Assembly (NCBI GenBank): GCA_016650295.1
Contig: JAENWA010000096.1
Span: 1 to 64,000, forward strand
Source of the DNA: Desulfuromonadales bacterium
GTDB lineage: Bacteria > Desulfobacterota > Desulfuromonadia > Geobacterales > Pseudopelobacteraceae
Direction of reading: 5' to 3'
Length of the DNA: 64,000 bases
The position numbers and the translations under genes are program-made. The number at the start of each line of letters is the position of its first letter. Position 1 is the stretch's first letter. The notes under the pieces were generated by a model. It searched no databases. It saw only the letters and a list, made by a program, of their open reading frames with translations, and was not told where the DNA came from. Below are positions 5,311-57,977 of the stretch, piece by piece.

Positions 5311-6369
5311 ATGACGACCGATAGCCACCCCCCCGAAAACCTCCGGCGCTCCAAGATCCATTCCGATGAGATGCTGGAATGGATGCAGGGCAAGGGAAAG
5401 ACCATCATCATCATCCATGACAATCCGGACCCGGATTGTCTGGCTTCGGCCATGGCGCTGCGCCACCTGCTTGCCATGAAACTGAGCCGGGATGCGATCA
5501 TCGCCTTTTCCGGCATGATCGGGCGCAGTGAAAACATCGCCATGGCAAAGGAACTGGAGATTACGCTCATCCCCCTCGATCTGGTCAGGCTGGATGAATT
5601 CAGCGTGGTCTGCATGCTTGACACCCAGCCCGGCACCGGCAACAACTCGTTTTCTCCTGATCGCCGGGTGGATATCATCATTGATCATCACCCCATGCGC
5701 GAAGCCAGCAAAAAGTGCCGCTGGGTGGATATTCGTGACGAGTATGGAGTTACCGCCACGATTCTGTACGAATACCTTCTGGCGCAAAATATCACCATCG
5801 GTACAAAACTGGCCACGGCCCTGTTCTACGCGATCAAATCCGAGACCCAGGACCTGGGCCGGGAGGCGAACCAGCCCGACCGGGACGCGTATCTTCGCCT
5901 CTTCCCCATAGCGAACAAGCGGCTCTTGTATGAAATCACCCATCCCAAGGTGCCGGTAGAACACTTCCGGACAATCCACAGCGGAGTTGAAAACGCGACG
6001 ATCTACGGCAAGCTGCTGGTTGTGAACCTGCAGAAGATCTGCTTTCCCGAAGTGGTGTCGGAGATGGCCGACTACCTGATCCGGCTGGAGGATATCGAGA
6101 CCGTGCTGGGCATGGGACATTACAACGATGGCATGATCCTTTCCATCCGCACGACCAGTCATCTGCTCAATGCGGGCGAGATCATCAGAAGGCTGGTGGC
6201 CGGTAGAGGAACGGCCGGAGGGCACGGCATGATGGCGGGAGGCCTGCTAAACAATGTACCGTTCGACCCCGCCGCACTGAAAGAGGTCGAAGATTTCCTG
6301 ACCAGGGGGATGCTGCAGGAACTGTCCATCGGGAATGTGATTCCGCGCAAGTTGATCGAGACCCGCTAG
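5311..6369 (+). CDS. DHH family phosphoesterase (NrnA-like)
   Basis: HDNPDPDCLASAMAL, DTQPGTGNN, IIDHHPM, C-terminal GGHGMMAGG (DHHA1). Confidence 0.92.
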   Translation: MTTDSHPPENLRRSKIHSDEMLEWMQGKGKTIIIIHDNPDPDCLASAMALRHLLAMKLSRDAIIAFSGMIGRSENIAMAKELEITLIPLDLVRLDEFSVVCMLDTQPGTGNNSFSPDRRVDIIIDHHPMREASKKCRWVDIRDEYGVTATILYEYLLAQNITIGTKLATALFYAIKSETQDLGREANQPDRDAYLRLFPIANKRLLYEITHPKVPVEHFRTIHSGVENATIYGKLLVVNLQKICFPEVVSEMADYLIRLEDIETVLGMGHYNDGMILSIRTTSHLLNAGEIIRRLVAGRGTAGGHGMMAGGLLNNVPFDPAALKEVEDFLTRGMLQELSIGNVIPRKLIETR

Positions 6370-45603: not shown

Positions 45604-45849
45604 AAAGAGCAGTATATAGGATCAGCGTCTGGTGAAGAAGGATTTTGGGGGCGCTGGCAGAACTACATACAGACTGGCCACGGCGGCAATGTGGGACTCA
45701 AGAGCCGAGATCCGAGCGATTATCAGGTTTCGATCCTGGAGGTTGCAGGTACATCTGCAACAACTGATGATATTCTGACCATGGAAGGCCGGTGGCAGTC
45801 TAAACTGCAAAGCAGGGAAATGGGGCTGAACCGCAATTTGTCACGTTAA
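45604..45849 (+). pseudogene. C-terminal remnant of a GIY-YIG-type nuclease protein
   Basis: Frame reads KEQYIGSASGEEGFWGRWQNYIQTGHGGNVGLKSRDPSDYQVSILEVAGTSATTDDILTMEGRWQSKLQSREMGLNRNLSR*; no start or N-terminus. Confidence 0.75.
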
Positions 45850-45976: not shown

Positions 45977-46789
45977 ATGACAGCAAAAATATTTCAAACA
46001 TTCAGGGAATTACGTGACGATTTAGGCAAGATAGATGCCTCGTTTGCTTACATTGCCTTGTCTTTAAAACACCTTGATTACAGTGCATCTCAGTCGGCAA
46101 ATCGGCTCAACTTCCTGGAGGAAGTTGCGGAGCGTCATTCAATTAGAGTTCTTCTCCAGAATGATGATGATCCACAGAAAAACGTTTACTTTTCTGCGGC
46201 TGTTGCAGTCCATTCCGAATGGGATCGCTTTTTATTTGGGCTTATGGATGAATTAAGTGATTTCAATTATGAGCCTATTGACAAGGGGCGTAGACGTGAT
46301 GGTGAATCAAGGCTGGCATTCTTTCTTCGATCCATGAAAGTAATTGCTCCAAACAAATTAGACGAATTACCGCAACCACTTATCGAACTATGTGAATACT
46401 TAAGACTCCTTAGAAATTATTATGCTCATCGTCTCACTACGCCTCAAAAGGAATGCGTAGAACTGTTTAATAAAATAAGCAAAAAAATCAATACTTGGCC
46501 GAGTAAATTCGGAAATCTTAAATTTTCATCTGAGTGTTGTCAGCCTGCGTTTGATGATGTGCTCATCTTGACAATAGCCGTAAAACTTCTTGCAGAGGAA
46601 ATATGTACCCGATTGGCTCCAGTCCCTGACGTATTGTTGGAGCATCCAGCAACAAAAGATTTTATTGCCCGTGAAAAAAGCCCCATGCCTGAAAGTCGTT
46701 TTCAATTGTTCCTGAATGATCGGTTCGGTCTTGATAGGATTACTGCTAATCAACTTTCTAAAAAACTAGTGAATAAGGCGTTGGTGTAG
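45977..46789 (+). CDS. HEPN-like protein (RNYYAH motif), possible defence nuclease
   Basis: 270-aa helical protein; LCEYLRLLRNYYAHRL matches the HEPN RX4H pattern. Confidence 0.65.
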   Translation: MTAKIFQTFRELRDDLGKIDASFAYIALSLKHLDYSASQSANRLNFLEEVAERHSIRVLLQNDDDPQKNVYFSAAVAVHSEWDRFLFGLMDELSDFNYEPIDKGRRRDGESRLAFFLRSMKVIAPNKLDELPQPLIELCEYLRLLRNYYAHRLTTPQKECVELFNKISKKINTWPSKFGNLKFSSECCQPAFDDVLILTIAVKLLAEEICTRLAPVPDVLLEHPATKDFIAREKSPMPESRFQLFLNDRFGLDRITANQLSKKLVNKALV

Positions 46790-46879
46790 TGGTCGCATAC
46801 CCCCTCGATGTGCACTCGAACCAGCTTCGAGAGTAGATCAAGGGCGAGGAGCTTGGTTCGATTCCAACACGCCTTTCCA
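46775..46879 (+). tRNA. Atypical tRNA-like gene (105 nt, enlarged anticodon/variable domain, encoded CCA)
   Basis: Acceptor AAGGCGT/ACGCCTT (7 bp), TG, D-arm GTGT-AGTGGTCGC-ATAC, T-arm TTGG-TTCGATT-CCAA, 3' T-CCA; 51 nt between D and T arms. Confidence 0.6.
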
Positions 46880-46975
46880 AAAAAGATGAAGTTACCAACC
46901 AGGAAAATGGACACCGGCCGCCCATAGGAACCGGACGGGCGAGTATTTCCCGAACCGTTGAACAGAGGAGAAAAT

Positions 46976-47749
46976 ATGCCACCGACAGGCGAAGAAATCC
47001 GGAGAGTACTTCTGGAAGTAATCAGTGAATACTCCGACAGAGATGCATCGTTTCAGTCCGGTACAATTTTAGGTGAATCTCAACGCAGACTCGGAATCAA
47101 TCATAATGTAAGCATGGAACAAGCGTTACTGACACTATGGCATGATCTGTTTAGAACTGGTTACCTTGCGTGGGGCTATAATCTTTCCAATCCGGACCCC
47201 CCATTTTGCCACCTTACAGACCAAGGGAGGCGAACCTTACAGCATTTAAGCCGTGATCCTGCTAATCCTGATGGATATCTTCATCATTTAAACCAAACAG
47301 CCACATTAAATCCAATTTCAAATTCTTATCTAAAAGAGGCTCTCATATCTTTTAACACCAACTGTTATAAAGCTGCTGCGGTTATGATAGGGGCTTCAGC
47401 GGAAAGTATTGTGCTTGAGTTGAGAGACACGCTGGTAGCTAAGATTATTTCTTTGAGCAGAACACCAGCTAAGGACCTGGAAGATTGGAGAATCAAGAAG
47501 GTTCTAGATTCATTAAAAAAGGAGATCGACGCAAAACGGCCCTTAATTCTCACTCCATTATGGGAAGCCTACCAAGGCTATTGGTCTGCTTTTACGCAGC
47601 AAATACGTACCGTTAGAAACGATGCTGGTCATCCTACAAATATTGACCCAGTGACAGAAGAGTCCGTTCATGCATCGCTTCTTATTTTTCCGGAATTAGC
47701 AAAGCTCGCAAATGACTTGTCATCTTGGATTACAACACATTACACATAG
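46976..47749 (+). CDS. HEPN-like protein (RNDAGH motif)
   Basis: QQIRTVRNDAGHPTNIDPV resembles HEPN/DUF4145-type C-termini; ORF with RBS agaggagaaaat. Confidence 0.65.
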   Translation: MPPTGEEIRRVLLEVISEYSDRDASFQSGTILGESQRRLGINHNVSMEQALLTLWHDLFRTGYLAWGYNLSNPDPPFCHLTDQGRRTLQHLSRDPANPDGYLHHLNQTATLNPISNSYLKEALISFNTNCYKAAAVMIGASAESIVLELRDTLVAKIISLSRTPAKDLEDWRIKKVLDSLKKEIDAKRPLILTPLWEAYQGYWSAFTQQIRTVRNDAGHPTNIDPVTEESVHASLLIFPELAKLANDLSSWITTHYT

Positions 47750-47854: not shown

Positions 47855-48499
47855 ATGGCAAATGTACCATCCAAAATAGAAACCGCTTTGAAAATACTAG
47901 ACATCTTTGTCAACCACTTTAATTGCAGGGCCTCACACGTATTAAGAGTGAACAACTTTTTGGCGGTATGGCACAAAAAAGGGCTGCATTGGGATGATTT
48001 TATTCCAGGAATGGAATTCGCCGCAGAGCAAAAATGGGTTGAGATATTGCCTAACGGTTACTCCTTCAAATTAACAGAAGAAGGTTTTGCAACATCGCCG
48101 CAACAAAATTCTGAAATAAACGCTAAACCGGCCATTGTAAATAAGAATTACATTAGCATTGGTCAGGCAATTAACTCGCCAATTACCCAGGGTATCAACT
48201 CAACTCAAACTGTAACGACCAATTACACACCTATTTCAAAAGACGAGCTGGTAGACTTCGTCAATTCTTTTCGAGAGCATATCTCAGATTTAAAACTTTC
48301 GACCCAAGAAGAAAGAAAAGTAAACGCTCAATTGGCCACAATTGAAGCCCAATTACTCGACGAACCAAATCCTGAAGTATTAAAACAAACCTTTGCCTCC
48401 ATTAAAAACATTACTGAAGGTGCTATTGGAAGTCTTCTAGCAACAGCCGCACAACCAGGAGTATGGGCTGCAATTCAATCTTTTCTCTCTAGTTGTTAA
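47855..48499 (+). CDS. Hypothetical protein, N-terminal winged-helix-like, C-terminal helical/hydrophobic
   Basis: RBS caggaggctttgaa; linker NYISIGQAINSPITQGINSTQTVTTNYT. Confidence 0.6.
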   Translation: MANVPSKIETALKILDIFVNHFNCRASHVLRVNNFLAVWHKKGLHWDDFIPGMEFAAEQKWVEILPNGYSFKLTEEGFATSPQQNSEINAKPAIVNKNYISIGQAINSPITQGINSTQTVTTNYTPISKDELVDFVNSFREHISDLKLSTQEERKVNAQLATIEAQLLDEPNPEVLKQTFASIKNITEGAIGSLLATAAQPGVWAAIQSFLSSC

Positions 48500-48634: not shown

Positions 48635-49090
48635 ATGAATCGGTTCAACAGCATCCAGCGCCAAGACCGGCCCAATAGCCGCCTCTCTCAAGAGATATTC
48701 GAAAGGATCGCCCGTGAGGGAAGAAAATTTGGATTAGGCTTAGTACTTTCTTCTCAACGTCCATCGGAACTTTCACAGACTGTTCTGGCTCAATGCAATA
48801 CATTTATTCTTCATCGGCTTGTAAATGATAAAGATCAGGACCAGGTTAAACGACTGGTCCCAGATAATGTAGGTGCACTCCTCGACGAACTTCCAAATCT
48901 ACCAACTCGGAAAGCAATCATGCTCGGTTGGGCAACACAGATTCCTGTAATCATGAATGTTCGTGAACTTCCGGACAGTCAGCGACCACACTCAGCCGAC
49001 CCACAATTCTGGGATGTTTGGACTAGAAGTAAAAAAGGTGAACGACTGATGAATTGGGATAAAATCGCTGACGAGTGGCAGGAAAGCTGA
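48635..49090 (+). pseudogene. C-terminal fragment of HerA-like ATPase
   Basis: SREIFERIA-type region SQEIFERIAREGRKFGLGLVLSSQRPSELSQTVLAQCNTFILHRLVNDKDQDQVKRLVPDN; Walker A and B regions absent upstream. Confidence 0.78.
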
Positions 49091-49243
49091 CAAGCCCGGA
49101 GGGGGCGCTAGAAAGCATATCAGAGGTTCAATGCTCGAGATTTCAAAAATATAAAACACATAATTTCCAACTCACGGCTGGACCGGTCCTAAACCCGACC
49201 GATCAGCCTTGCGTTTTACATGCAGAAAAGGACCCACAACCCA

Positions 49244-50800
49244 ATGATCGAAGACATCAAAAAAACCCTTTGGGCCACCGCCGACAAGCTGCGCGCCAAC
49301 ATGGACGCTGCCGAATACAAGCATGTCGTGCTTGGCCTCATCTTTGTCAAATACATCTCCGACACCTTTCAGACCCGCAGTAACGAACTTACGGAACGCT
49401 TTGCTGATCCTGATGACGAGTATTACATTCAGGATGCAGATTCTGCTGGAATAGTAAGCGAGCTGGAAGACCGTGACTACTACCGGGAAGTCAACGTCTT
49501 CTGGGTGCCGGAAGCTGCGCGCTGGGAAAACCTGCGGGCACAGGCCAAGCAGCCCGATATCGGCAAACGCATCGACGATGCCCTGACACTGATCGAGACC
49601 GAAAACCCCAAACTCAAAGGTATCCTCGACAAACGCTATGCCCGCGTGCAACTTCCTGATGGCAAGCTGGGCGAACTTGTGGATATGGTTTCTACCATCG
49701 GATTTGGGACCACCGGGCAGAGTGCCCGCGACCTGCTCGGCCAGGTGTATGAATATTTTCTCGGCCAGTTTGCCAGTGCCGAAGGCAAGCGTGGCGGCCA
49801 GTTCTACACCCCTGCCAGTATCGTTAAGACGCTGGTATCCATACTCGCACCGCATCAGGGACAGGTCTATGACCCCTGCTGCGGTTCGGGCGGCATGTTT
49901 GTGCAATCGGAAAAATTCATCGAAGCACATGGCGGCAAGATCGGTGATGTGTCTATCTACGGCCAGGAATCCAACCCAACCACCTGGCGGCTGGCGGCGA
50001 TGAACCTCGCCATTCGCGGTATCGACTTCAACCTGGGCAAAGAACCTGCCGACACCTTTGTCCGCAACCAGCACCCCGATTTGCGCGCCGACTTCGTGCT
50101 GGCCAACCCTCCCTTCAATATTTCCGACTGGTGGCATGGCAGCCTGGAAGGCGACCCGCGCTGGGTGTATGGCACACCGCCGCAAGGCAACGCCAACTAC
50201 GCCTGGCTGCAACATATCCTCTACCACTTAAAAGCTCAGGGTAGAGGCGGTATCGTACTGGCCAACGGCTCCATGTCCTCCAGCCAGAACTATGAGGGCG
50301 ATATCCGCCGCGCCATGGTCGAGGCCGACAAGGTGGAGGTCATGGTTGCCATGCCGGGCCAACTGTTCTTCAATACCCAGATCCCGGCCTGCCTCTGGTT
50401 TCTGGTCAAACAGAAGAGCAGGCGTCAGGGTGAAGTGCTGTTCATCGACGCCCGCAAACTGGGCACCATGATCAGCCGGGTGCAGATCGAGTTTACCGAT
50501 ACCGATATCCAGAGAATCGCCGACACCGTCCTTGCCTGGCGTTGTGATGGTGAAGCCAATGTCGAATATGCCGACGTGGCCGGCTTCTGCCGGAGTGTGA
50601 CGCTGGCCGAGATCGCCGAGCATGGTCATGTCCTGACACCGGGGCGCTATGTGGGTGCTGAGGCGGTTGAGGATGATGACGAAGCTTTTGTTGAGAAAAT
50701 GCAGCGGTTGACTGAGACTCTGGGTGAACAGATGGCCAAGGGTGCGGAACTTGATGGGCTGATCCGGAAGAAGCTGGGAGGGCTGGGGTATGAGTTCTAA
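49244..50800 (+). CDS. hsdM: Type I restriction-modification system, DNA methylase subunit M
   Basis: [55 protein letters not shown]. Confidence 0.96.
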
Positions 50801-52130
50801 TTCGCCCATTCAGTCTGAGTTTCCCATAACCCCGATTGGGTTTGGCGCAAATTTTATTTCTGGATATGCCTTTAAGAGCCAGGATTTCTGCGAAAAAGGG
50901 CTTCCGGTTATAAAAATCAAAAACATTCAGGATCGGATCGTTACTACTGCTAGCTCTCAGTGCGTACTACCTGATCTAATTACGGAGAAACTGAAAAAGT
51001 TCCTACTGGATAACGGCGATGTACTTATTGCAATGACAGGGCAAGGCAGCGTTGGTCGTGTAGGCAGGCTTCAATGCGTAAAAAATATGCGCCCTGCGAT
51101 GAACCAACGAGTTGGAAAGTTTGTCGCAGATGAGGCGTCACTTCACAAAGATTTTTTGTATTACGTCATAAGTTCAGAAACTTTTGAGAACCATTTATTT
51201 GCTATGGGATCTGGGAGTGGCCAGCCGAACCTGAGTCCAGCCGCGATTCTGTCGGTTGGTATTCCTCAGCCTGCATACCAGGAACAAGTTGCAATCGCGG
51301 AAATATTGAATGCTCTTGACGACCGCATCGCCCTCCTCTGCGACACCAACACCACCCTCGAAGCCATCGCCCAAGCCTTGTTCAAATCGTGGTTTGTGGA
51401 CTTCGACCCCGTCCGCGCCAAACAGGAAGGCCGCGAACCGGAAGGCATGGACGCCGACACCGCCGCGCTCTTCCCCGATAGCTTCGAGGAATCGGAACTG
51501 GGGTTGGTGCCGAAGGGGTGGCGGGTTGGAACGGTTGCAGATATTGGTGAGGTCATTTGCGGTAAAACACCACCGACATCGGAACCTGCAAATTACGGCG
51601 ATGATGTTCCGTTTATCACGATACCAGACATGCACAATCTTTTAGCCGTCACTTCAACCAACAGGTCATTATCAACGCTTGGTGCTAATACACAGAAGAA
51701 GAAAACGCTACCACCTGGATCAATTTGTGTGTCTTGTATCGCAACGGCTGGCCTTGTAGTGCGAGTAACGACGCCATCACAAACAAATCAGCAAATAAAT
51801 AGTGTGGTGCCATTTACAAAATGGGGCTATTCCTTCCCACTCTTTACCCTCAGACGAATTGGCGATGCCGTGCGTGCTGGTGGTTCTGGTGGTTCGGTTT
51901 TTCATAACCTGAGCAAGTCAGGATTTGAAAAATTAAAAGTCTTGTTCCCTATTGAACAACTTACCGTTGTTTTTGGTGAAATCATTGAACCTATTATTGA
52001 GAAAATCATTAAGAATCAAAAGCAAGCCCAAACCCTCGCCACCCTCCGCGACACATTGCTCCCCCGCCTGATCTCCGGCCAGTTGCGCCTGCCGGATGTC
52101 GAAGCACTCATTGAGGAGGCCACCGCATGA
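50790..52130 (+). CDS. hsdS: Type I restriction-modification system, specificity subunit S
   Basis: Two TRD-like regions with conserved helices ([39 protein letters not shown]). Confidence 0.93.
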
Positions 52131-53089
52131 GTTATCAGCCCCCCTACACCATCACACCACAAATATTGCAGCGGGTAGCAGAGATCGTCGAGCTGTTGGC
52201 CCGTTGGTCGGTGTCAGGTGACTCTGCCCTGTCGCCGCAGTTGCGGCGCAACAACCGTATCCGCACCATTCAGGCATCGCTGGCCATCGAAAACAACACC
52301 CTGAGCATCGAGCAGGTGACCGCCGTACTGGAAGGGAAGCAGGTGCTCGGCTTGCCGCGCGAAATTCAGGAGGTGAAGAACGCCTTTGCCGCCTATGAAC
52401 AGTTGCCGGAGTGGCAACCTCATGCCAGCGCAGATCTGTTGGCAGCGCATGGCCTGCTGATGGCTGGTCTGGTGGATGAAGTCGGTACGTTCCGTACTGG
52501 CGGTGTCGGAGTTTACAACGACAAGGGACTGGTGCATATGGCGCCGCCCGCTGCTCGTGTCGCCGGGCAAATGTCTGATTTGCTGGCCTGGCTGGCATCG
52601 GCGCCGGTGCATCCTTTGATTGCCAGTTGCGTGTTCCATTACGAATTTGAGTTTATCCACCCTTTTGCCGATGGCAATGGCCGCATGGGGCGTTTGTGGC
52701 AAACGCTGATCCTGAGCCAGTGGCAGCCGATGCTGGCGTATCTGCCGGTTGAATCGTTAATCAGATTTCGACAGGTTGCCTATTATCAGGCCTTGGCAGA
52801 GTCGGACAAGACGGGAAATTCAACAGTTTTTATCGAGTTCATGTTGCAGGCGTTACAGGATACCCTAACGGAAGCCCTTTCAAAAACGTCGGTGAAAGCG
52901 TCGGTGAAAACGTCGGTGAAAATCATTGCCGAGCTGCGACAGAACGGTTTGCTGACCATTCCGGAACTCGCCAAAATCATCGGCGTCACAACCCGATCCA
53001 TTGAACGTAATCTGCAAAAGCTGCAGGAGGAAGGAAGGTTGCGTCGGGTCGGGGCAGACAAGGGCGGCCATTGGGAGGTAGTGAAGTGA
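52127..53089 (+). CDS. Fic family protein with C-terminal wHTH
   Basis: HPFADGNGRMGR Fic motif; SIEQVTAVLEGK; C-terminal HTH. Confidence 0.92.
   Translation: MSYQPPYTITPQILQRVAEIVELLARWSVSGDSALSPQLRRNNRIRTIQASLAIENNTLSIEQVTAVLEGKQVLGLPREIQEVKNAFAAYEQLPEWQPHASADLLAAHGLLMAGLVDEVGTFRTGGVGVYNDKGLVHMAPPAARVAGQMSDLLAWLASAPVHPLIASCVFHYEFEFIHPFADGNGRMGRLWQTLILSQWQPMLAYLPVESLIRFRQVAYYQALAESDKTGNSTVFIEFMLQALQDTLTEALSKTSVKASVKTSVKIIAELRQNGLLTIPELAKIIGVTTRSIERNLQKLQEEGRLRRVGADKGGHWEVVK
52886..52921. repeat. 12-bp tandem repeat ACGTCGGTGAAA in fic
   Basis: acgtcggtgaaagcgtcggtgaaaacgtcggtgaaa encoding TSVKASVKTSVK. Confidence 0.8.
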
Positions 53090-53134
53090 CTGAAATAAGC
53101 CGACTAATCGTTTGTCGCCGACATCTCGGAACGG

Positions 53135-53446
53135 ATGGGCTACCTCTCGGCACTTGAGCCGGAGCAAGGACGCTCCCCCCAAGTCACCCCTCAAGTCACC
53201 CCCCAAGTCGAGCGGCTGATGGAGACGCTGGTTGGCGACATGTCCCGAGACCAATTACAAATGGCCATTGGCCTGCAAGACCGCAAGTCGTTCCGCGAGC
53301 TCTATCTTGCACCGGCATTGGCGGCCGGATTGATCGAGATGACCATTCCTGAAAAACCGAACAGCCGGTTGCAAAAATACCGGTTGACTGACCTGGGCAA
53401 ATCGTGGCTGTCACAAAGGGATGAGCAGATTTGTAGGTTGGGGTGA
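53135..53446 (+). pseudogene. C-terminal wHTH fragment of a Fic/AlbA-type protein
   Basis: TPQVTPQVTPQVERLMETLVGDMSRDQLQMAIGLQDRKSFRELYLAPALAAGLIEMT; N-terminal domain missing. Confidence 0.6.
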
Positions 53447-53530
53447 ACTGTTGTATCGTGAACCCCAACATTACGACGCTGGCAAGACTAAAACCGTTGG
53501 GGTTCGTTGCTCTTACCCCAACCTACGAAA
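53432..53530. repeat. REP-like element flanking RAYT (left)
   Basis: gtaggttggggtgaac...gaaccccaacattacgacgctggcaag...ccgttggggttcgttgc...accccaacctac. Confidence 0.8.
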
Positions 53531-53544
53531 ACAGGCGTGGGAAT

Positions 53545-54068
53545 ATGAACTATAGGCGGGCAAAAACTGAAGGTGGCACCTATTTTTTCACGGTCACGCT
53601 GGCTGACCGGAGGAAATCGGCACTTGTGGAACATGTTGATCTGCTCCGTTCTGCCATCCGTCTGGTAAAAGAACGGCATCCATTCACTATCGACGCAATT
53701 GTAATAATGCCAGAACATCTTCACACGATCTGGACTTTACCAAAAGGGGATAAAGACTACCCAACTCGATGGGCACTCATCAAAGCTGGTTTCTCCCGTG
53801 CTTTGCCGAAGGGCGAGGCGATAAGTGAGAGTCGCCTCGCCAAGGGTGAGCGTGGAATCTGGCAACGTCGTTACAGGAGCATCAAATTCGTGATGACGAG
53901 GATTTTGCACGACATGTTGATTACATCCATTTCAACCCGGTAAAGCACGGTCATGTGGCGAGCCCGATTGACTGGCCATTTTCTTCAATTCATCGGTTTG
54001 TAGCAGCGGGGACATTACCGACTGATTGGGGGGCATCTGAAGAGATTTCGGGTAAATTTGGAGAATAA
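53545..54068 (+). pseudogene. REP-associated tyrosine transposase (RAYT, Y1 family), frameshifted
   Basis: NYRRAKTEGGTYFFTVTLADRRKS...IVIMPEHLHTIWTLP...GIWQRRY; after a 1-nt frame change near 53875 continues HQIRDDEDFARHVDYIHFNPVKHGHVASPIDWPFSSIHRF. Confidence 0.88.
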
Positions 54069-54072
54069 GAAT

Positions 54073-54223
54073 CGTTGGGGTTCGTTGCACTTACCCCAAC
54101 CTACGAAAAATACGCTTCTGTAGGTTACGGGTGAACGGTCGTATTGTGAACCCCAACATTACGTCGCTGGCAAGATTAAACCGTTGGGGTTCACGGTGAG
54201 ACTGTTCACCACCAACCTACGAT
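54073..54223. repeat. REP-like element flanking RAYT (right)
   Basis: cgttggggttcgttgcacttaccccaacctacgaaaa...gtgaaccccaacattacgtcgctggcaagattaaaccgttggggttcacggtg. Confidence 0.8.
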
Positions 54224-54251
54224 AATGAATTACGAAACCCTCGGAGAAACC

Positions 54252-57200
54252 ATGACCGAAGACCAACTCGAACAGGAAACCATGGGCTGGCTGGCCGAAG
54301 CCGGCTACAGCCATTGCTACGGTCTGGACATTGCCCCGGATGGCTCTGCACCTGAGCGCAGCAACTACAACCAGGTGCTGCTGGTAGGCCGACTGCGGGA
54401 GGCGATCAACCGGCTGAACCCTTTGGTACCTCCAGTGGCACGCATTGATGCCCTGCAACAAGTGCTGAACCTGGACACGCCGGTGCTGCTGGCTGCCAAT
54501 CGCGCCTTCCACCAACTGCTGGTCAATGGTGTTCCGGTCGAGTATCAGAAGGATGGCGAGACACGCGGCGACTTTGTGCGGTTGATCGACTTTGCCGAGG
54601 TAGAGGCGAACGAATGGATGGCGGTGAACCAGTTTTCCGTCAAGGGTGCAAAGTACACCCGCCGCCCGGACATCATCCTGTTCATCAACGGCCTGCCGCT
54701 GGTGCTGCTGGAGTTGAAGAATCCTGCCGACGAGAAGGCCGACATCTGGAAGGCCTACGATCAGATCCAGACCTATAAAGAGCAGATACCGGATGTCTTC
54801 CAGTACAACGAACTGCTGGTAATCACGGACGGAACCGAGGCGCGCCTGGGTTCGCTCTCTGCCAACGTCGAACGCTTTATGGCCTGGCGTACTATTGACG
54901 GCCTGACGCTTGACCCGCTCGGCCAGTTTAACGAGCTTGAGACGCTGATTCGTGGTGTGCTGGCCCCGGCCTTTCTGCTGGATTTTCTGCGCTTCTTTGT
55001 GCTGTTCGAGGATGACGGCACCCTGGTCAAGAAGATCGCCGGGTATCACCAGTTCCACGCGGTACGTTCGGCCATTGAGCAGGTAATTGCGGCATCCCGC
55101 CCTGGCGGTGATCAGAAAGGGGGCGTGGTCTGGCATACCCAGGGATCGGGCAAGAGCATCACCATGACCTGCTTTGCAGCGCGGGTGATGCGCGAGGCGG
55201 CGATGGAGAATCCCACCATCGTGGTCATTACCGACCGCAACGATCTGGACGGGCAACTGTTCGGGGTATTCTCTCTGTCGCAGGAGTTGCTGCGTGAACA
55301 GCCGGTACAGGGTGAAACGCGGCAGGACCTGCGGGCCAAGCTGGCCAACCGGCCATCGGGGGGGATCGTCTTTGCCACCATCCAGAAGTTCATGCCGGGG
55401 GAGGATGAAGACAGCTTCCCGGTCCTGTCCGACCGCCACAACATCGTGGTGATCGCCGATGAGGCCCACCGCACCCAGTACGGCTTTGAAGCCAGGTTCA
55501 AGGGCGATTCCAAGGGGTATCAGGTGGGCTATGCCCAGCATCTGCGCGATGCGCTCCCTAATGCAACCTTTGTGGCTTTTACCGGCACCCCTGTAGCATC
55601 CGAAGACCGCGACACACGGGCCGTGTTTGGCGATTACATCAGTATCTACGACATGCAGCAGTCCCGCGACGATGGGGCGACTGTGGCGATCTATTTTGAA
55701 TCACGCCTGGCAAAGTTGGGGTTGAAAGAAGACATGCTGGCGGACATCGACGCCGAGGTGGACGAACTGGCGGAAGATGAAGAGGACGATCAGCAGGCCC
55801 GGCTCAAGAGCAAATGGACGGCGCTGGAAAAGGTAGTCGGTGCCGAACCGCGTATCAAGCAGGTGGCGGCTGACCTGGTGGCACACTTTGAAGAACGCAG
55901 CCAGGCCCAGACCGGTAAGGCGATGGTGGTCGCCATGAGCCGCGACATCTGCGTCCATCTCTATAACGCCATCATTGACCTGCGCCCGGAGTGGCACGAC
56001 GAGGACCCGGAAAAAGGCGTGATCAAGGTCGTGATGACCGGCTCAGCCAGCGACAAGCCATTGCTGCGACCGCATATCTATTCCAAGCAGGTCAAGAAGC
56101 GCCTGGAAAAACGCTTCAAAGATCCGGACGATCCGATGCGACTGGTGATCGTGCGGGATATGTGGCTGACCGGTTTCGATGCCCCCTGTGTGCATACGAT
56201 GTATGTGGACAAGCCGATGAAGGGGCACAACCTGATGCAGGCCATCGCCCGCGTCAACCGGGTGTTTCGGGACAAGCAGGGCGGACTGGTGGTGGATTAC
56301 ATCGGCATCGCCAATGACTTGAAACAGGCGCTCAAGGAATATACCAACAGCAAAGGCCGTGGCCGGCCGACTGTCGATGCCCACGAAGCGTATGCGGTGC
56401 TGGAAGAGAAGCTGGACATCCTGCGCGGCATGCTGCATGAGTTCGACTACAGCGGCTTTCTCACCGGCGGCCACGGCATCCTGGCCAAGACTGCCAATCA
56501 TGTCCTGGGGATCAAGGACGGCAAGAAACGCTTTGGCGATACCGCGCTGGCCATGTCCAAAGCCTTTACGCTCTGCTGCACTCTTGATGAAGCCAAGGCC
56601 GTGCGCGAAGAGGTGGCCTTCTTCCAGGCGGTCAAGGTGCTGTTAACCAAGCGGGAGATCAGCACCAAGAAGCGCACCAATGAAGAGCGCGAGCTGGCGA
56701 TCCGCCAGATCATCGGCTCGGCGCTGGTCTCGGAAGAAGTGGTGGATATTTTCCAGGCGGTAGGTCTGGACAAGCCGAATATCGGCATCCTGGATGATAA
56801 CTTCCTGAATGACGTGCGCAACCTGCCGGAACGCAATCTGGCGGTGGAACTGCTGGAGCGACTGCTGGAAGGTGAGATCAGGGCGCGCTTTGCCACGAAC
56901 GTAGTGCAGCAGACCAAGTTTTCGGAACTGCTGGCCAACGTCATCCTGCGCTATCAGAACCGGGCCATCGAAACCGCCCAGGTGATTGAAGAACTGATCG
57001 CCATGGCCAAGAAGTTCAAGGAAGCCATCGGCCGGGGCGAGGAACTCGGACTCAATAACGATGAACTGGCCTTCTATGATGCACTGGCCAACAATGAAGA
57101 AGCGGTCCGCGAGATGGGTGACGAGATCTTGAAGAAGATTGCCCACGAACTAGCAGAGAGCCTGCGCCAGAACATCAGCGTAGACTGGTCGGTGCGGGAT

Positions 57201-57329
57201 AACGTGCGGGCCAAGCTGCGGCTGATGGTGAAGCGGATTCTGCGAAAGTACAAGTATCCGCCACACCGGCAGGAAGCAGCGGTGCAACTGGTACTGGATC
57301 AGGCGGAGACGCTGAGTGCGGAGTGGTAG
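54252..57329 (+). CDS. hsdR: Type I restriction-modification system, restriction subunit R
   Basis: [20 protein letters not shown] (nuclease), [43 protein letters not shown]. Confidence 0.96.
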
Positions 57330-57624: not shown

Positions 57625-57977
57625 TGGTGGAGGTGAGGGGAATCGAACCCCTGTCCGAAAGACCTACAAACTGAATTACTACACCGTTAGTCAATTGCTC
57701 GATTTAGCCGGTGTGCTGCGCACTTGACAAAGCAGCAAACCGGCGGTCCCGTTGATCTCGGGTCACGCTACGGGCGTCGCGCATCCCTATCCGGTAGTGA
57801 ATGACGCCCCCGTTTTACCACCGGCATCTCAATTGGGGGCGCCTGTTAAGCAGCTAGTGCAACAGGAGTGTTGTAGTTGTCGGCAATTAAGCCGTTGCAG
57901 GTTTATTAAGGTCGGCCGCCTGCCCCGACCCGGTGCAATCCAGAAATTCACTCCCCCGTCGAAACCTTTACACCCCC
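57625..57977 (-). ncRNA. ssrA: tmRNA
   Basis: Minus strand begins GGGGGTGTAAAGGTTTCGACGGGG, tag reading frame GCCGACAACTACAACACTCCTGTTGCACTAGCTGCTTAA (ADNYNTPVALAA*), ends TTCGATTCCCCTCACCTCCACCA. Confidence 0.96.

Follow-up and report, generated by a model that had tools for sequence, protein, structure and literature searches.

A tRNA-like RNA overlapping the 3' end of a HEPN-motif gene: a candidate RNase and decoy pair in a Desulfuromonadales bacterium

Why should a gene for an RNase-like protein carry an RNA that resembles a tRNA but has lost its anticodon loop? The question is raised by a stretch of 64,000 nucleotides (nt) of contig JAENWA010000096.1 from a Desulfuromonadales bacterium (called here the window), in which a tRNA-like sequence lies between two genes encoding proteins with HEPN motifs. 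An earlier note made from the letters of the window had described two HEPN-motif open reading frames (ORFs) flanking a tRNA-like gene, and both ORFs, their motifs and the cloverleaf are indeed present (Table 1). That note missed a closer relationship: the RNA begins inside the first ORF, and the overlap comprises the last 15 nt of that ORF. Comparison with other genomes provides good support for the pairing of the first protein with the RNA, and a genuine protein-RNA pair, described in none of the libraries or literature that we searched, is likely.

Table 1. Features of the locus, numbered from the first nucleotide of the window.
Feature	Position	Strand	Description
HEPN-motif protein, unnamed family, candidate RNase/toxin	45977-46789	+	ORF, 270 amino acids (aa); LLRNYYAHRL; R146-N147-x3-H151
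tRNA-like RNA	46775-46879	+	Cloverleaf 46775-46876, encoded CCA 46877-46879
Acceptor stem, 5' strand AAGGCGT	46775-46781	+	7/7 pairs with 46869-46875
D arm GTGT-AGTGGTCGC-ATAC	46784-46800	+	D stem GTGT/ATAC, 4/4 pairs
Anticodon stem, 5' strand CCCT, and C32	46802-46806	+	CCT-C identical in 4/4 RNAs
33-nt hairpin replacing anticodon-loop positions 33-37	46807-46839	+	First 3 bp covary across four loci
A38 and anticodon stem, 3' strand AGGG	46840-46844	+	C32/A38 mismatch in 4/4
T arm CTTGG-TTCGATT-CCAAC	46852-46868	+	4/5 pairs
Acceptor stem, 3' strand ACGCCTT, discriminator T, encoded CCA	46869-46879	+	
DUF4145 HEPN protein, outside the conserved unit	46976-47749	+	257 aa from ATG; TVRNDAGHPT; Pfam PF13643, E=3.9e-5
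Winged-helix-like protein, weak AbiTi/MC5-like C-terminus (context only)	47855-48499	+	PADLOC AbiTi, E=2.5e-6; Pfam MC5, E=0.089
Type I restriction-modification (R-M) locus (context)	49220-57329	+	Pfam/NCBIfam
hsdM	49220-50800	+	
hsdS	50790-52130	+	
Fic	52127-53089	+	
hsdR	54225-57329	+	

The tRNA-like RNA and its recurrence

The stop codon of the first HEPN ORF in the window is a TAG (46787-46789) that is supplied by the D arm of the RNA. The RNA cannot decode, because a hairpin replaces the anticodon loop. It was missed by ARAGORN run with default settings. It was also missed by Rfam, both when the whole window was searched at the gathering threshold and when the segment 46750-46980 was searched at E<=1.

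A similar RNA overlaps the 3' end of the gene for a related protein at three other loci. These are found in G586, a genome of another family within the order of the window, in Bernardetia, and in G830, another genome of the Cytophagales order. All three loci were retrieved by protein similarity alone, and the RNA was spotted afterwards. The HEPN ORF leads at its 3' end into tgcctgttggctcagtggcagagc...gggttcgattccccggcaggcacca in G586, into gtctactagcataaaggtagtgc...ttggttcgattccaacagtagata in Bernardetia and into tgttccattagcttaacggtaaagc...gaagttcgaatcttcggtgggaca in G830. The stop codon ends inside the RNA by 14 nt in Bernardetia, 15 nt in the window, 16 nt in G830 and 48 nt in G586. The association of the first HEPN-motif protein with a tRNA-like RNA, which had been put forward from the window, therefore recurs in four of the six distinct members of the protein family. 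These four fall in two divergent lineages and agree in the geometry of the overlap and in the anatomy of the RNA.

That anatomy is maintained by pairing. The 7 bp acceptor stems have unrelated sequences at the four loci, and all 28 of their 28 pairs can form, compared with 12.7 on average, and at most 15, when the partner strands are swapped between loci. The D stems form 16 of 16 pairs and the T stems 17 of 20. In each RNA the last pairs of the anticodon stem are CCT/AGG, with C32 and A38 next to them. In place of a 7-nt anticodon loop containing U33, each RNA has G or C, and never U, at position 33, and a hairpin of 30-38 nt substitutes for positions 33-37. The first three pairs of the hairpin covary over the loci (GAT/ATC, CAA/TTG, CAC/GTG and CAT/ATG), giving 12 of 12 pairs within loci compared with 7.3 for swapped partners. 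CCA is encoded in the window and in G586, and not in Bernardetia or G830. The pairs were counted on structures parsed by hand, as MAFFT misregistered the acceptor, the D arm and the hairpin; the parse required a choice of one-nucleotide register at G586 and G830, where both registers pair. Minimum free energy (MFE) folds of the four RNAs independently give a broken helix, comprising a stem, a single C/A mismatch and a further helix. In three of the four folds the further helix has 3 bp and is then interrupted by a second single mismatch.

A descriptor of this anatomy gave three matches in 13 Mb of shuffled sequence searched on one strand, corresponding to ~0.2 per Mb per strand. Applied to both strands of 2.6 Mb of fetched sequence it returned the four loci, re-fetched copies of these, and two other places (in L218 and L281). 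It was built from these same RNAs, and only its false-positive rate is informative. The tRNA-like RNA is more than a chance resemblance, because the descriptor is so rarely matched in shuffled sequence and because the anatomy recurs at three distant homologous genes.

The HEPN-motif protein family

The protein whose gene overlaps the RNA belongs to a sparse and diverged family. A search of 275 genomes of the class yielded one relative (G586:C237, 26% identical), and the relatives overall are 19-26% identical to the window protein. Used in turn as a query, G586:C237 detected relatives on three plasmid records among 72,556 plasmids, those of Bernardetia, Methylobacterium and Rhizobium. A profile made from five proteins then found the G830 member and a second Bernardetia-like copy among 189 genomes of the order containing the Cardinium genome of L099. 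In two phylum samples the family was present in 1 of 398 and 1 of 378 genomes, on each occasion that of the window itself. The phage records and viral contigs searched contained no relatives, and pattern searches of viral and genome contigs with the single protein returned none. The family profile has no match in Pfam, PADLOC or the PDB.

The six distinct members share few invariant residues. Among these is the sequence Arg-Asn-x3-His, which is present in all six and corresponds to the RN-x3-H motif of HEPN RNases (PMC3710099, PMC12373285).

On the Rhizobium leguminosarum plasmid (L131) a T-arm-like sequence is found at ~5485-5603, ~250 nt ahead of the gene for the HEPN-motif protein. It may be a diverged tRNA-like element, although it lacks a cloverleaf fold.

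Possible roles of the RNA

Anticodon nucleases are found among the HEPN proteins. The presence of a tRNA mimic with an RNase-like gene is most simply, and most likely, explained if the RNase binds tRNA and the mimic occupies it uncut. Our judgement is evenly balanced as to whether the unit consists of a HEPN-motif RNase toxin together with a dedicated tRNA-mimic decoy that holds the RNase inactive. An antitoxin or decoy role had been among those suggested for the RNA from the window, and it is a role that we infer still.

A scheme can be drawn from the layout of the pair. The protein and RNA would probably derive from one transcription unit. The protein would most likely be a HEPN RNase toxin, which plausibly binds tRNA and cuts within the anticodon loop. 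The RNA would have kept the body of a tRNA (the acceptor, D arm, T arm and the base of the anticodon stem with C32 and A38), with the hairpin in place of the cleavable loop. Because the hairpin stands where that loop would be, the mimic may bind the enzyme without being consumed, and the enzyme would be held inactive in the manner of a type III RNA antitoxin. Since the RNA starts before the toxin ORF has ended, trimming of the shared transcript by RNase P would set the decoy free and at the same time take the stop codon off the toxin message, and each transcript would then provide either a decoy or a toxin mRNA, and not both. If an infecting phage stopped host transcription or damaged tRNA, loss of the decoy would follow, and with it release of the nuclease, and the pair might then act in phage defense. 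The complete proposal is of a class of RNA-regulated defense or toxin-antitoxin systems that restrain a HEPN tRNA-cleaving RNase with a dedicated, full-length tRNA mimic; the mimic, its anticodon loop replaced, would be excised from the 3' end of the toxin's own message, each transcript becoming decoy or toxin. We advance it tentatively, with rather less than even confidence.

A number of observations weigh against a toxin with its decoy. Only four distinct RNA-bearing loci have been found, which limits the support. The Methylobacterium and Rhizobium members, both alphaproteobacterial, have no recognizable RNA, and the RNA is therefore not indispensable to the whole family. A clear parent or mimicked host tRNA was sought in the genome and not found. 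Type I R-M genes do not lie beside the Bernardetia or G830 copies, linkage being confined to two of the four RNA-bearing loci. The window protein has no significant match in Pfam, NCBIfam, PADLOC or the PDB. AlphaFold run on single sequences gave no usable model, with a predicted local distance difference test (pLDDT) score of 44.9, and alignment to DUF4145 by hhalign matched the motif alone, without significance. Thus of the two HEPN assignments made in the earlier note, that of the second protein is borne out by a Pfam match (PF13643, 24.1 bits against a cutoff of 23.1), while for the first the fold is suggested by the invariant RN-x3-H motif only.

The RNA might instead be a sensor or activator. 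The bound mimic would report on the state of tRNA-handling enzymes (RNase P, the CCA-adding enzyme, a synthetase, or phage nucleases or ligases), and its loss or damage would switch the RNase on; or the RNA would be a cofactor that delivers the RNase to tRNA or ribosomes. Conserved pairing and a tRNA body fit this equally well, and the complete 7 bp acceptor of all four RNAs, with CCA encoded in two of them, would suit such enzymes. Yet the acceptors and the apparent discriminators vary between loci, so that no single synthetase identity is conserved. Moreover the anticodon loop, the usual determinant for synthetases and nucleases, is gone, and this favors an inert decoy. On balance we regard a sensor or cofactor as unlikely.

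The position of the 5' end of the RNA, upstream of the stop codon at all four loci, would also suit an RNA element that serves in cis for processing. The mRNA would be cut at its 3' end by RNase P and by the enzymes that process tRNA 3' ends, which would remove the stop codon and so limit expression of the HEPN protein, and the RNA that is freed would have no function. However, such a site needs only the acceptor and T stems, and both the C32/A38 mismatch and the covarying hairpin are then left unexplained. This explanation seems to us improbable.

The earlier note had taken the HEPN gene, the tRNA-like gene and the second HEPN gene to be a single three-element cassette. The elements are adjacent on one strand, with 96 nt between the end of the RNA and the ATG of the DUF4145 gene, and an RN-x3-H motif is present in both proteins. 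Comparison does not support the cassette, however. The DUF4145 gene has no homologue at any of the three other HEPN/tRNA-like loci (G586, Bernardetia and G830), and the homologues that it does have, on Agrobacterium, Mycobacterium and Bacillus plasmids, are accompanied by neither the RNA nor a gene of the first family. The DUF4145 HEPN gene is real, and it lies outside the conserved unit; one three-gene system is very unlikely.

ARAGORN in intron mode can be made to read the window RNA as tRNA-Asp(gtc) with a 13-nt intron, and introns at that site were common in the archaeal tRNAs met in our pattern scans. Against this, none of the four RNAs has U at position 33, and the insert, paired on both of its sides, covaries; its 30-38 nt are too few for a group I intron, and the association with a HEPN gene would go unexplained. 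The forced reading is implausible, and we consider a spliced elongator tRNA highly improbable. Least credible of all, and already contradicted, is a degenerate tRNA gene or attachment-site remnant beside an unrelated gene. Defense islands often occur at tRNA or transfer-messenger RNA (tmRNA) genes, and a tmRNA gene is present here at 57625-57977. However, distant lineages have this structure at the corresponding site, with compensatory changes in its pairs, and the genome yielded no intact tRNA whose sequence would make it the parent.

The reading of the RNA as a decoy for an RNase may be set beside known systems. In tmRNA and the bacterial Y RNAs (YrlA), which are functional RNAs, a tRNA-like domain is present and a decoding anticodon loop is lacking. 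By contrast the present RNA keeps the whole cloverleaf, with the anticodon loop alone replaced, and has neither a tag ORF nor an adjacent Ro/Rsr gene. PrrC and RloC are HEPN-superfamily proteins that cleave tRNA anticodon loops, and PrrC is tied to type I R-M. Both carry ABC-type nucleoside triphosphatase (NTPase) domains, and PrrC is restrained by the EcoprrI proteins, not by RNA. Membership of the HEPN superfamily, assigned here by motif, would be shared with them; the NTPase is theirs only, none being detected in the 270-aa protein, which has no Pfam match.

ToxN-like proteins and AbiF are known to have RNA antitoxins. In the type III toxin-antitoxin (TA) systems (ToxIN, AbiQ, TenpNI and CptNI) a protein RNase toxin and an RNA antitoxin share one locus, which has been shown there and is proposed here. 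Those toxins have the ToxN fold and their RNAs are tandem repeats lying upstream, whereas the protein here has a HEPN motif and the tRNA-like RNA is single and downstream. Tandem RNA repeats 5' of the gene are not the arrangement at any of the four loci, each of which has one RNA at the 3' end.

AbiF provides a close analogy in kind, being a HEPN-type toxin (with an Abi_2 domain) accompanied by a small structured RNA (abiF-motif, RF03085). It is established that AbiF is neutralized by direct binding of the non-coding RNA RCd22 (PMC12373285). The AbiF RNA consists of repeated short hairpins located 5', before a terminator, whereas that studied here is a tRNA mimic at the 3' end, overlapping the ORF. 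The window protein has no Abi_2 match, nor has any of the five family members scanned, and the window RNA does not match RF03085. The first protein has the same type of RN-x3-H motif as the HEPN-MNT TA systems and DUF4145 proteins (PMC3710099), but no MNT-like antitoxin gene was recognized beside it and its proposed partner is RNA. In the literature that we searched, no complete tRNA mimic lacking the anticodon loop was found as a dedicated partner of a HEPN protein. If confirmed, the pair would reveal how a look-alike of its substrate can keep a tRNA-attacking enzyme silent, offer a simple co-expression test of control by a tRNA decoy, and add a marker RNA that is overlooked by the default tRNA finder and by Rfam.

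Neighboring genes and other tRNA-like sequences

DUF4145 is a family of the HEPN superfamily that occurs in R-M operons (PMC3710099). The sequence RN-x-AGHP is kept in the plasmid homologues of the window DUF4145 protein. A type I R-M locus had been placed directly after the cassette in the earlier note. HsdM, HsdS and HsdR are confirmed by Pfam; the locus begins 1.5 kb beyond the second HEPN ORF and is not adjacent to it, with two elements in between, the winged-helix-like gene and a HerA-like fragment. The association with R-M recurs once elsewhere, in G586, where the protein-RNA pair lies directly behind hsdMSR and hsdR ends 45 nt before the HEPN ORF. Near the Rhizobium copy, which is without the RNA, there is a cytosine methyltransferase gene.

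The winged-helix-like protein adjoins the HEPN genes, and besides AbiTi it shows weak similarity to the ABC-3C middle component. The HerA-like fragment (48635-49090) is short and similar to the C-terminal part of a HerA-like helicase (Pfam HerA_C, E=0.064), and is probably a decayed defense gene. Upstream of the pair, an open frame at 45613-45849 beginning YIGSASGEEGFWGRW is reminiscent of a GIY-YIG nuclease remnant, with no Pfam match. A tmRNA gene is a common integration site, and the one in the window, on the (-) strand beyond the R-M locus, marks the place where the defense genes end.

Pattern scans were also made elsewhere. A first scan of viral contigs for D and T arms returned class II tRNAs and odd phage tRNAs, all without the anatomy of the window RNA, and in genome contigs most of the matches were intron-containing archaeal tRNAs. 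When viral contigs were scanned twice more with narrower motifs, ordinary tRNAs and chance matches were obtained.

Some of the tRNAs encountered are unusual in other ways. Five phage tRNAs, several in large-genome contigs, have a D arm of TGGTGTAGTGGT or similar and an insert of ~40 nt between the D and anticodon arms (L016 3452-3566 (-), L064 1564-1676, L044 8323-8440, L059 333-447 (-) and L019 1467-1584). An anticodon arm is retained in L016, TTTCC-ATTTCAA-GGAAG (anticodon UUC), and the insert contains a hairpin followed by TTCAGCAA. Another group of phage tRNA-like genes, found at ~4190-4295 of L143 and also in L138, L165, L184, L185 and L218, has an acceptor and no ordinary D arm. In these the anticodon arm begins CCCCTC (with an anticodon such as UCG or CCU), and a GGAAGGA-like stretch precedes the T arm. 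A tRNA-like gene in an Oscillospiraceae genome (L083, ~1531-1655) has an 80-nt center and an encoded CCA, and resembles the phage genes in its build.
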